DNA from: Marinagarivorans sp.
GTDB taxonomy: Bacteria > Pseudomonadota > Gammaproteobacteria > Pseudomonadales > Cellvibrionaceae
Direction: 5' to 3'
DNA length: 64,000 nucleotides
Assembly: GCA_028281865.1 (NCBI GenBank)
Contig: JANQJB010000017.1
Location: forward strand, 22,502-86,501
Position 1 is the first letter of the stretch. Every line of letters begins with the position of its first letter. A program made the position numbers and the translations under genes. Shown here in pieces: positions 53,883 through 57,399 of the stretch. The notes under the pieces were generated by a model. It saw only the letters and a list, made by a program, of their open reading frames with translations, was not told the origin of the DNA and made no database searches.

Positions 53883-54638
53883 ATGACCGAAACGTCTATA
53901 CAGCCACAGGTCGCTATTATCGGCGGCTCAGGCTTCTACGAATTTCCAGAGTTGAAAAATCAGCACGAAACTCAAGTTAAAACGCCGTTTGGTGATGTGT
54001 TTGGCGTGGTGACAGGCCAATTAAATGGCGTTGACTCCGCTTTTTTACTACGGCATGGCGCCGGCCACCGACTTCCGCCACATAAAGTAAACTATCGAGC
54101 CAACATTTGGGCGCTGCATTCGCTCGGCGTTAAAAAAATTTTTGCTATTAACGCTGTTGGAGGGATTAGTGGAGAAGCGCGACCGGGTAGTATTGTGCTT
54201 CCCGATCAAATTGTCGACTACACGTATTGCAGAGAGCACACATTCGCCGATTTGCTCAGCGATGATATTAACCATATTGATTTTACTTACCCTTTTTGTC
54301 AGAGGTTACGCGAATTATTGGCAACTAGCCTGGCAGATAGTGAGGTAGATTGGGTGGCTAAAGGTACCTACGCGTGTATGCAAGGACCGCGGCTCGAAAC
54401 ATCCGCTGAGATAGATCGCCTAGAGAGAGACGGTTGCTCTGTCGTAGGCATGACAGCCATGCCTGAAGCGGCCCTCGCGCGCGAACTGCGGCTTGATTAT
54501 GCTTCATTGTGTATCGTGGCTAATTGGGCTGCGGGCCGTTCAAGCGATTTAATCAGCATACAAGATATTCACGCGATCTTAGAAAAATCGGCTGCGTCAG
54601 TGCGTAAGGTTTTGCTCGAAGTTGTAAAAAGTGTTTAA
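53883..54638 (+). CDS. mtnP: S-methyl-5'-thioinosine / methylthioadenosine phosphorylase
   Basis: This 251-residue purine-nucleoside-phosphorylase family (trimeric type) enzyme splits the methylthio nucleoside with phosphate. The N-terminus IIGGSGFYEFP, phosphate-binding FLLRHGAGHRLPPHKVNYRANIWALHSLGV and GTYACMQGPRLETSAEI, and the substrate loop VGMTAMPEAALARELRL are present. The C-terminal part reads IVANWAAGRSS; this residue pattern in the base pocket, as I recall, is typical of the methylthioinosine phosphorylase (MTIP) of pseudomonads rather than MTAP. The gene follows hpt. Confidence 0.88.
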   Translation: MTETSIQPQVAIIGGSGFYEFPELKNQHETQVKTPFGDVFGVVTGQLNGVDSAFLLRHGAGHRLPPHKVNYRANIWALHSLGVKKIFAINAVGGISGEARPGSIVLPDQIVDYTYCREHTFADLLSDDINHIDFTYPFCQRLRELLATSLADSEVDWVAKGTYACMQGPRLETSAEIDRLERDGCSVVGMTAMPEAALARELRLDYASLCIVANWAAGRSSDLISIQDIHAILEKSAASVRKVLLEVVKSV

Positions 54639-54738
54639 ACACCCTTCATAGTTTATACTGATTAATCGCGCTAGCATTGGGATATCAGGTCAGCAATACT
54701 AGTTCATCAAAGGCGTGGCGTATTGCTAGCTAGCACTA

Positions 54739-54744
54739 TATAAT
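54739..54744 (+). promoter_or_regulatory. Promoter -10 box of thrS
   Basis: A perfect TATAAT lies 101 bp before the thrS start. No good -35 box is seen at 17 bp upstream. Transcription would begin near 54751, giving a leader of about 94 nt containing both hairpins of the operator below. Confidence 0.5.
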
Positions 54745-54758
54745 CCCCGCCTCTTCAG

Positions 54759-54823
54759 GATAAGTCGCGACTTATCTTGCAAAAAATCTCTGTTGTTTTC
54801 ACGTGGCCTTTGGTAGGGGCCAC
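54759..54823 (+). promoter_or_regulatory. thrS leader operator with tRNA-Thr anticodon mimic
   Basis: The leader has two hairpins. The first is GATAAGT-CGCG-ACTTATC (54759-54776), a perfect 7-bp stem. The second is GTGGCC (54803-54808) paired with GGCCAC (54818-54823); a T-G pair inside leaves the 7-nt loop TTGGTAG, which has U33, anticodon GGU and A37 of tRNA-Thr. It ends 21 nt before the start codon, with the SD (GAAGGAAG) after it. The order hairpin, single-stranded linker, hairpin, SD is that of the E. coli thrS operator, to which ThrRS binds to block its own translation. Confidence 0.75.
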
Positions 54824-54844
54824 CACTGATATGAAGGAAGTGTT

Positions 54845-56755
54845 ATGCCTATTATTACTCTCCCCGATGGTTCGAAACGAGAATTTGATAAACCTGTAAC
54901 TGTTTTAGAAGTTGCCCAAGATATTGGCCCCGGTTTGGCGAAAGCAACTATTGCCGGGCGTGTAAACGGTCAGCGCGTCGATGCCAGTGACCTCATTTCT
55001 GAAGATGCGGATTTAACGATCTTTACTGCTAAGGATGAAGATGGCATTGAAATTATTCGCCATTCGTGTGCGCATTTAATTGGGCATGCCGTTAAGCAAC
55101 TTTGGCCCGAAGCGAAAATGGCCATTGGTCCCACAATCGAAAATGGCTTTTATTACGATATCGACATGGAGCACAAGCTGACAGATGAGGATCTCGAAAC
55201 GCTGGAAAAGCGAATGCTTGAGCTGGCCAAGACGAATTACCCTGTAATTAAGAAAAAGGTGAGCTGGCAAGAAGCGCGCGATACTTTCGAAGCGCGCGGT
55301 GAAACCTACAAAATGGAGATATTGGATCGCGATGTTGCTAAAGATGATCGGCCAGGTTTATATCATCATGAAGAATACGTCGATATGTGTCGTGGTCCTC
55401 ATGTGCCGCATATGGGCTTTTGCCACCATTTCAAATTGACTCGAGTCTCCGGAGCATATTGGCGCGGTAGTTCGGACAATAAGATGTTACAGCGAATCTA
55501 TGGTACGGCTTTCGCTGATAAAAAAGCGTTGAAGGAGCACCTGCGCTTCATCGAAGAAGCAGCTAAGCGCGACCACCGTAAAATTGGTAAACAATTAAAT
55601 TTTTTCCACCTGCAAGAAGAAGCGCCCGGTATGGTTTTCTGGCACCCACGTGGTTGGGCAATCTACGGCGAGCTTGAGCGATACATGCGTGAGATTATGC
55701 GCGTCAATGGCTACATGGAAATAAAAACGCCGCAAGTTGTCGATCGTACTTTGTGGGAAAAATCCGGTCACTGGGATAAATTTCGTGAAAACATGTTCAC
55801 GGTAAAGTCTGAAGACCGAGATTTTGCCGTCAAGCCGATGAACTGCCCGGGCCATGTGCAAATATTCAATCAGGGTTTGAAAAGTTACCGCGACTTGCCA
55901 CTACGCTTAGCTGAATTTGGCTTCTGCCACCGCAATGAAGCCTCGGGCTCTCTGCAAGGGTTAATGCGTGTCAGGGGGTTTGTGCAAGATGATGGCCATA
56001 TTTTTTGTACTGAAGAAATGATTCAAGATGAAGTCTCACAATTTACCGATTTACTCTACAAGGTATACAGAGATTTTGGCTTTGAAGATATTATTTTGCG
56101 TTTATCGACTCGGCCCGAACAACGTGTCGGTAGCGACGAAATTTGGGACAAGGCTGAAAAAGCGCTAGCTGATGCTCTAGATGCTAAGCAGCTCGAATGG
56201 GAAGAGTTGCCGGGTGAGGGCGCATTCTACGGGCCTAAAATTGAGTTTTCGTTGCGCGATTGCATTGGTCGCGTATGGCAATGTGGCACGATGCAGGTCG
56301 ATTTCTCGATGCCGGGACGGCTTGATGCGCAATATGTCGCCGAAGATGGCTCGCGCCAAGTACCCGTTATGTTACACCGGGCTATACTAGGTTCGTTCGA
56401 GCGCTTTATCGGGATTTTGATTGAACATTATGAAGGTGCTTTTCCCTGTTGGTTGGCGCCGGAACAAGCTGTAGTTCTCACAATCACTGAGCGGCACAAC
56501 GCTTACGCGCGAAAAATCGAGAAATTGCTTAAAAATAAGGGGCTTAGAGCCTATTCTGACTTGAGAAATGAAAAGATCGGCTTTAAAATCCGCGAGCACA
56601 CAATTCAGAAGGTTCCTTTTTTGTTTGTAGTTGGGGACCAAGAAGAAAAAGACGGCACTGTCGCGGTGCGAGCGCGGGGAGGAGAGGACTTAGGTGCTAT
56701 GCCTCTTGGTGACGCAGTAGGACTGATCGAAAAAGCCATCGAAGAAAAGCGTTAA
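54845..56755 (+). CDS. thrS: Threonyl-tRNA synthetase
   Basis: This 636-residue class-II synthetase charges tRNA-Thr. It has an N-terminal TGS domain (residues 1-62), an editing domain that removes Ser-tRNA ([18 protein letters not shown]), the catalytic core with zinc ligands (Cys in [10 protein letters not shown], His in the DDGHIF and [13 protein letters not shown] segments), and a C-terminal anticodon-binding domain ([20 protein letters not shown]...). SD GAAGGAAG is well placed. It heads the thrS-infC-rpmI-rplT operon. A leader operator suggests feedback by its own product. Confidence 0.98.
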
Positions 56756-56853: not shown

Positions 56854-57399
56854 ATTAACAATAAAAACAACGGCAAAGGTCGTTCAGGTAAACCTGCAAT
56901 TAATGATACGATCGAAGCGAAAGAAGTTCGTCTGATCGCGTCGGATGGGCAACAAGTGGGGATTGTTCCGCTCGAAGAAGCGTTGGAAAAAGCGCAGTCG
57001 GAATCGCTTGATTTGGTCGCCATTGCAGGAGATGCAGACCCGGTGGTTTGCAAAATAATGGATTATGGTAAACATCTTTTCGATTTAAAAAAACAAAAAG
57101 CTGCAGCGCGCAAAAAGCAAAAGCAGCAGCATGTTAAAGAAATGAAGTTTCGCCCTGGTACTGAAGATGGAGATTACCAAGTGAAACTGCGCAATTTGAA
57201 ACGCTTCCTTGAAGCCGGTGACAAAGCCAAGGTAACTCTGCGTTACCGCGGGCGCGAAATGGCTCATCAGGAGTTAGGGATGGAAATGATGCAGCGCATT
57301 GCCGCTGATTTGGAAGAGTTGGGTGTGGTTGAACAGCATGCAAAGATGGAAGGGCGTCAGCTGACTATGGTAATTGCACCACAGAAAAAAAAGAAATAA
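56854..57399 (+). CDS. infC: Translation initiation factor IF-3
   Basis: The 181-residue factor starts at an ATT codon (56854-56856), five bases after GGAGAG; the first ATG in frame is internal (56956). ATT is the well-known start of infC in E. coli, where IF-3 rejects its own non-standard start and so limits its synthesis. The protein has the N-domain ([29 protein letters not shown]), the linker helix ([25 protein letters not shown]) and the C-domain ([35 protein letters not shown]). It lies 98 bp after thrS, as in most bacteria. Confidence 0.96.

Follow-up and report, generated by a model that had tools for sequence, protein, structure and literature searches.

Apparently a single-mimic variant of the thrS operator, outside the enterics, in the leader of a Marinagarivorans threonyl-tRNA synthetase gene

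The best-known case of a bacterial aminoacyl-tRNA synthetase that represses its own synthesis through tRNA mimicry was worked out in Escherichia coli, and the question arises whether thrS in the stretch of Marinagarivorans sp. DNA analysed here (64,000 nucleotides, hereafter the window) is preceded by an operator of the same kind. Excerpts of the work on the E. coli operator (PMC3858243, PMC11088916, PMC9976931, PMC7373986, PMC6542539, PMC3936740) describe a threonyl-tRNA synthetase (ThrRS) that binds two anticodon-like hairpins of its own leader, domains 2 and 4 (PMC11088916, PMC9976931). According to the same excerpts, bound ThrRS, whose N-terminal part runs into the ribosome, excludes the 30S subunit, and the enzyme is competed for by tRNA-Thr (PMC11088916, PMC9976931, PMC3858243, PMC7373986); repression requires this N-terminal part, and a G and a U of the loop are threonine identity elements (PMC7373986, in part). 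Our survey of titles and abstract openings found no paper that surveys this operator outside E. coli, the work on a Bacillus or T-box thrS leader dealing with a different RNA; this is a weak negative as most subscription papers lay outside its scope.

A sequence-only reading of the window had placed a mimic of the tRNA-Thr anticodon arm at 54803-54823, with a T-G pair closing the loop TTGGTAG, and this hairpin was confirmed in the sequence. Its stem joins 54803-54809 (GTGGCCT) to 54817-54823 (GGGCCAC) through six Watson-Crick pairs and the T-G pair, and the loop presents U33, GGU at positions 34-36 and A37 (Table 1), which gives a core of 21 nt with a 7-bp stem and a 7-nt loop. Further pairs (54799-54801 with 54827-54829) enclose this core across a 1x3 internal loop formed by 54802 opposite 54824-54826. 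The 35-nt hairpin stretch folds with a z-score of -2.55, and the entire 116-nt leader, at -0.31, is of ordinary stability. The anticodon loop of the genome's own tRNA-Thr(GGT), found among 29 tRNA matches that are probably an incomplete list, reads TTGGTAA, and the stems of tRNA and leader are not alike. In the minimum-energy fold of the window leader, two extra pairs form inside the loop and leave a GGU triloop; since these pairs find no support across 92 leaders (65.2% of cells paired as compared to a shuffled mean of 69.5), what is conserved is the 7-nt loop in its open form, although the prediction for the window half closes it. Modification of A37 in the loop was also considered; a review raises modification of thrS mRNA only as a question (PMC8394870).

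Table 1. Features of the thrS leader and gene in the window (positions of the window).
Feature	Position	Strand	Basis or remark
Predicted -10 box TATAAT of the thrS promoter, followed by GC-rich stretch CCCCGCCT	54739..54744	+	related leaders
Perfect 18-bp palindrome GATAAGTCGCGACTTATC, CGCG loop	54759..54776	+	near predicted mRNA 5' end; folding
A/U-rich linker, for the most part unpaired by prediction; candidate equivalent of domain 3 in E. coli	54781..54798	+	unpaired probability
Putative operator core, domain 2 type	54799..54829	+	fold, covariation, model match 54795-54834
Anticodon-like loop UUGGUAG, positions 32-38, GGU at 34-36	54810..54816	+	6/7 letters of own tRNA-Thr(GGT) loop
Shine-Dalgarno-like AAGGAAG, outside hairpin	54834..54840	+	sequence
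thrS, threonyl-tRNA synthetase, 636 aa	54845..56755	+	ATG at 54845

The leaders available for comparison came from the window's genome and those of 37 relatives (38 in all), from 80 named loci and from E. coli K-12. The element stands 5' of thrS in 36 of the 38 genomes and in 78 of the 80 named loci; sorted by kinship labels, it is present in 24/25 members of the window's family and in 12/13 of the remaining set from its order. Two relatives (L013 and L254) and one named locus (L061) have no element before thrS, which implies that it can be lost, and at a further locus (L043) the leader is cut by the contig end. To define the conserved letters we rely on the 91 distinct elements for which CCACTG, the 3' word, was the only search criterion; of 110 loci, the three that lack this word (L013, L061 and L043) had been left out, and repeats had been merged. 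In a larger set of 223 elements the G-U at 35-36 is universal by construction, as that search demanded it. All 91 have a gapless 21-nt core and all 91 keep G35-U36, and base 34 is G in 47, C in 24, A in 13 and T in 7 of them. It had been suggested to look in related leaders for compensatory changes in both stems and for a conserved GGU or CGU loop, and the core stem does show such changes: over 92 rows including E. coli, 96.7% of cells are paired as compared to 84.2 in shuffled alignments, two-sided changes number 101 cells versus 26.5, and pairing falls to 31-48% when the partners are slid out of register. The number of pairs that change on both sides, 6/10, was also reached in 50 of 500 shuffles. 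Of the triplet in the loop, G35-U36 only is kept, base 34 being any of the four. The core hairpin is real, beyond chance.

The freedom of base 34, which in the 36 relatives is G 18, C 11 and A 7 times, also leaves the idea that GGU is a special identity replacing the enteric loop without support, since GGU against CGU then marks no change of identity. The constancy of the two letters behind it does fit recognition by ThrRS, because G and U of the loop are the threonine identity elements named in the excerpted source (PMC7373986), and the covarying stem with G35-U36 kept in homologous leaders upholds the view of the hairpin as an anticodon-arm mimic of a thrS operator. The letters kept are thus G35, U36, the CAC of the internal loop and CCACTG, the letter that is free is base 34.

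The fourth stem pair (column pair 12-26) is mostly G-U (51/92) and non-standard in 10/92 rows, where A mostly stands opposite C; such an A-C opposition would resemble G-U in shape and is possibly a selected wobble.

How this element relates to that of E. coli was addressed with a covariance model built from 42 leaders, those of E. coli and others which, to judge by record names and taxonomy, lie outside the window's order. On the window this held-out model reports the element at 43.2 bits (E 6e-10), the next best match having E 1, and on the window's own 5.9-Mb genome the element is the sole match reported at E<=10 with 150 of 1067 loose first-pass candidates scored. Of 41 loci of relatives it hits 35, and with L028 and L252 hit twice the matches number 37. 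The six loci without a match are L013, L254, L253, which carries a degenerate element, and L256-L258. Common descent with the E. coli domain 2 hairpin is what this model, E. coli included, and the covariation indicate.

The last three of these loci are second, diverged thrS copies in three relatives, 54-57% identical to the window ThrRS and without the element; they would escape the feedback.

In E. coli, according to an excerpt of PMC3936740, this hairpin lies between the two halves of a ribosome site, a split with which the ribosome copes, and one could therefore imagine that the core has been kept for ribosome loading or for mRNA stability rather than for ThrRS binding, all the more so since CCACTG and the CAC internal loop are conserved as strongly as the loop itself. 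We regard this as quite improbable, as reading by ThrRS should leave just such a pattern, with G35-U36 constant and base 34 free (PMC7373986, in part), and both the report of the element before thrS only in the own genome and its absence from the three second thrS copies speak against it.

The sequence-only reading had further proposed a second perfect hairpin which, with a single-stranded linker, would complete the layout of the E. coli operator. The palindrome is indeed perfect and its stretch folds with a z-score of -3.80, but its loop is CGCG, which is not anticodon-like, so that it does not complete that layout. A stable hairpin at roughly the place that domain 4 takes in E. coli, with an A/U-rich linker between it and the core, nevertheless invites the reading of a two-site operator, in which the palindrome or an undetected second mimic plays domain 4 and both ThrRS subunits are engaged; should transcription begin further upstream than predicted, a second mimic may lie there. 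Our hairpin finder detected no convincing NGU-loop hairpin in the 120 nt before the core; the best NGU[AG] candidate there has a 4-bp stem and stands 5' of the predicted -10 box. Upstream NGU[A/G]-loop hairpins are common elsewhere, being found in 45 of 200 leaders outside the relatives' set (shuffled 3.1, maximum 5; four control triplets, 3 to 9), by a finder so strict that domain 4 of E. coli itself escapes it, the loop of that fold having 8 nt and containing UGU. Only 2 of the 36 relatives (L016 and L028) pass the same finder, as compared to 0.35 after shuffling (maximum 2) and 0 to 2 for the control triplets, two of the four of which give the same count. From 45/200 against 2/36 we conclude that a second mimic, frequent in other leaders, cannot be told from background among the window's relatives. 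The palindrome as domain 4 was thus rejected for its CGCG loop without NGU and for a count in relatives at the level of the controls, and a two-site operator at this locus seems unlikely to us. In the preferred reading, which has one mimic, the palindrome would have no role beyond that of a 5' cap or spacer next to the open linker.

The transcript start would, from the position of the predicted -10 box, fall near 54752, just 5' of the palindrome. Boxes resembling -10 elements lie 8-60 nt from the element in 20/48 related leaders as compared to 3-11 in 15 shuffles, and the exact TATAAT occurs in 8 of 48 as compared to 0-4; a consensus promoter scan reported no matching promoter pair at 54739-54744. 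In some leaders (L011, L034, L019 and L012) the predicted box stands only 15-27 nt 5' of the element, too close for a second hairpin to fit in between. Behind the predicted boxes, in the window (54739-54751 for box and stretch together) as in related leaders, there is often a GC-rich stretch, e.g. CCGC, as in promoters under stringent control.

A perfect 18-bp palindrome just 3' of a predicted transcript start could also work at the DNA level, as the operator of a transcription factor, and be no part of the RNA at all. This, too, appears to be a minor candidate: the palindrome folds well as RNA, and a regulon was rejected because the genome holds one exact copy and five sites with three mismatches, as compared to three for the reversed control pattern.

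Downstream of the palindrome, the linker has a mean unpaired probability of 0.60 in the window, and over 236 leaders the corresponding region reaches 0.54 versus 0.42 further upstream, with the higher value in 178/236. Words resembling a Shine-Dalgarno sequence stand between element and start codon in 185/236 leaders. The open linker fits the split ribosome site of E. coli, which by the excerpted account needs a single-stranded region of 24 nt; G(-32) there, the equivalent of G35 in the window, is the site of the published mutation BS4-9 (PMC3936740). The distance to the start codon, claimed to match that of E. coli, does so exactly, as U36 has position -31 relative to the ATG in E. coli and in the window alike, and -27 to -31 is the commonest range over all leaders. 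Position, the 21-nt core with its 7-bp stem and 7-nt loop containing G35-U36, the 1x3 internal loop, CCACTG and an A/U-rich linker upstream are shared with the E. coli thrS operator. The two differ in the loop (UUCGUGU there, UUGGUAG in the window), in the second hairpin, an anticodon mimic in E. coli as far as the excerpts describe it (PMC11088916, PMC9976931), and in the predicted leader, which is shorter in the window.

Other systems offer looser parallels. In the yeast AspRS mRNA and other eukaryotic anticodon-mimic mRNAs, the messenger likewise resembles the anticodon arm of the tRNA that the encoded synthetase charges; these cases concern another synthetase, another domain of life and another mode of control, and are analogous, not related. 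In other bacteria, T-boxes sense the state of a tRNA before synthetase genes. A T-box of this kind, for which literature on the thrS leader of Firmicutes exists, or a transcription attenuator would likewise couple the window's thrS to tRNA; T-box leaders bind tRNA directly, however, whereas the window mRNA imitates it, and as there is neither a terminator-like site within 54500-54900 nor an Rfam 15 match up to E 1 within 54640-54860, we give this explanation hardly any credence. Membership of the window leader in a known Rfam family was rejected likewise, no covariance model having matched.

From our point of view, the best reading is that the window apparently carries a single-mimic variant of the known operator, outside the enterics, and we consider it likely that 54799-54829 is a hairpin of the domain 2 type which would bind free ThrRS and block access of the ribosome with one mimic only. 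One mimic would appear to be enough in the window's lineage, given that the hairpin upstream of the core lacks a loop of the anticodon type. By analogy with E. coli, ThrRS in excess over its tRNA would grip the core loop with its anticodon-binding domain, the N-terminal part of the bound enzyme would collide with the 30S subunit so that translation of thrS drops, and abundant tRNA-Thr would compete ThrRS off the leader. In its length the encoded protein is consistent with such a course of events. It aligns along residues 1-632 of E. coli ThrRS (1qf6) at 65% identity, is of full length in the window and has the N-terminal part. Against the reading, only 46/98 residues of the anticodon domain are identical to E. 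coli, and of six residues taken to be anticodon contacts two are exchanged (N to G at 502 and R to K at 589), the other four being kept. Judged by ThrRS, the closest relatives with a name belong to the Cellvibrionaceae and their kin, e.g. Marinagarivorans algicola with 82%.

Many other gammaproteobacteria, too, have the operator core 5' of thrS. Rfam 15 is without a match even on E. coli's own thrS leader. A covariance model was made for the element, and under strict filters, which render all counts lower bounds, it matches, at E<=0.001, at least 109/369 genomes of a class sample (260 without a match) and at least 157/244 of an order sample, and, at E<=0.01, at least 53/299 of a phylum sample. 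The position relative to thrS was checked for all 109 class matches and for part of the phylum and order matches. Among the former, 108 precede thrS, including the window itself (L112) and L198, the loop of which has one extra base, and one (L207) is not 5' of thrS. A spread beyond the class was rejected, as the three phylum matches in question (L228, L247 and L248) all sit within open reading frames, none of them 5' of thrS.

As a broader reading, to which we give about an even chance, the element would represent an ancient RNA family of the gammaproteobacteria that Rfam does not list, with an irreducible core that is one mimic and in which only G35-U36 is read. The two-mimic form of E. coli would then be one of several elaborations, next to upstream NGU hairpins and tandem cores, and the ThrRS dimer of the window's lineage would repress by way of a single mimic on each mRNA and might bind two messengers at a time. 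With forms that have one mimic, two mimics or tandem cores, nature offers a direct test of whether symmetrical binding by the ThrRS dimer is needed.

Tandem copies of the core stand before thrS in L167, L252 and L028 (genome G031). Six genomes of one family (f8), that of L028 among them, have two matches each, and one listed genome of this family has none; the listed pairs of this family are spaced by about 70-75 nt, and those of L167 and L252 lie much closer together. On the other side of the gene, the frames 3' of thrS look, by eye, like infC, rplT, pheS and pheT. The infC-like frame at 56854-57399 apparently opens with ATT (AUU) after GGAGAGATGCT, with the start in the list of open reading frames being GTG at 56956; an AUU start is known from E. 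coli infC.
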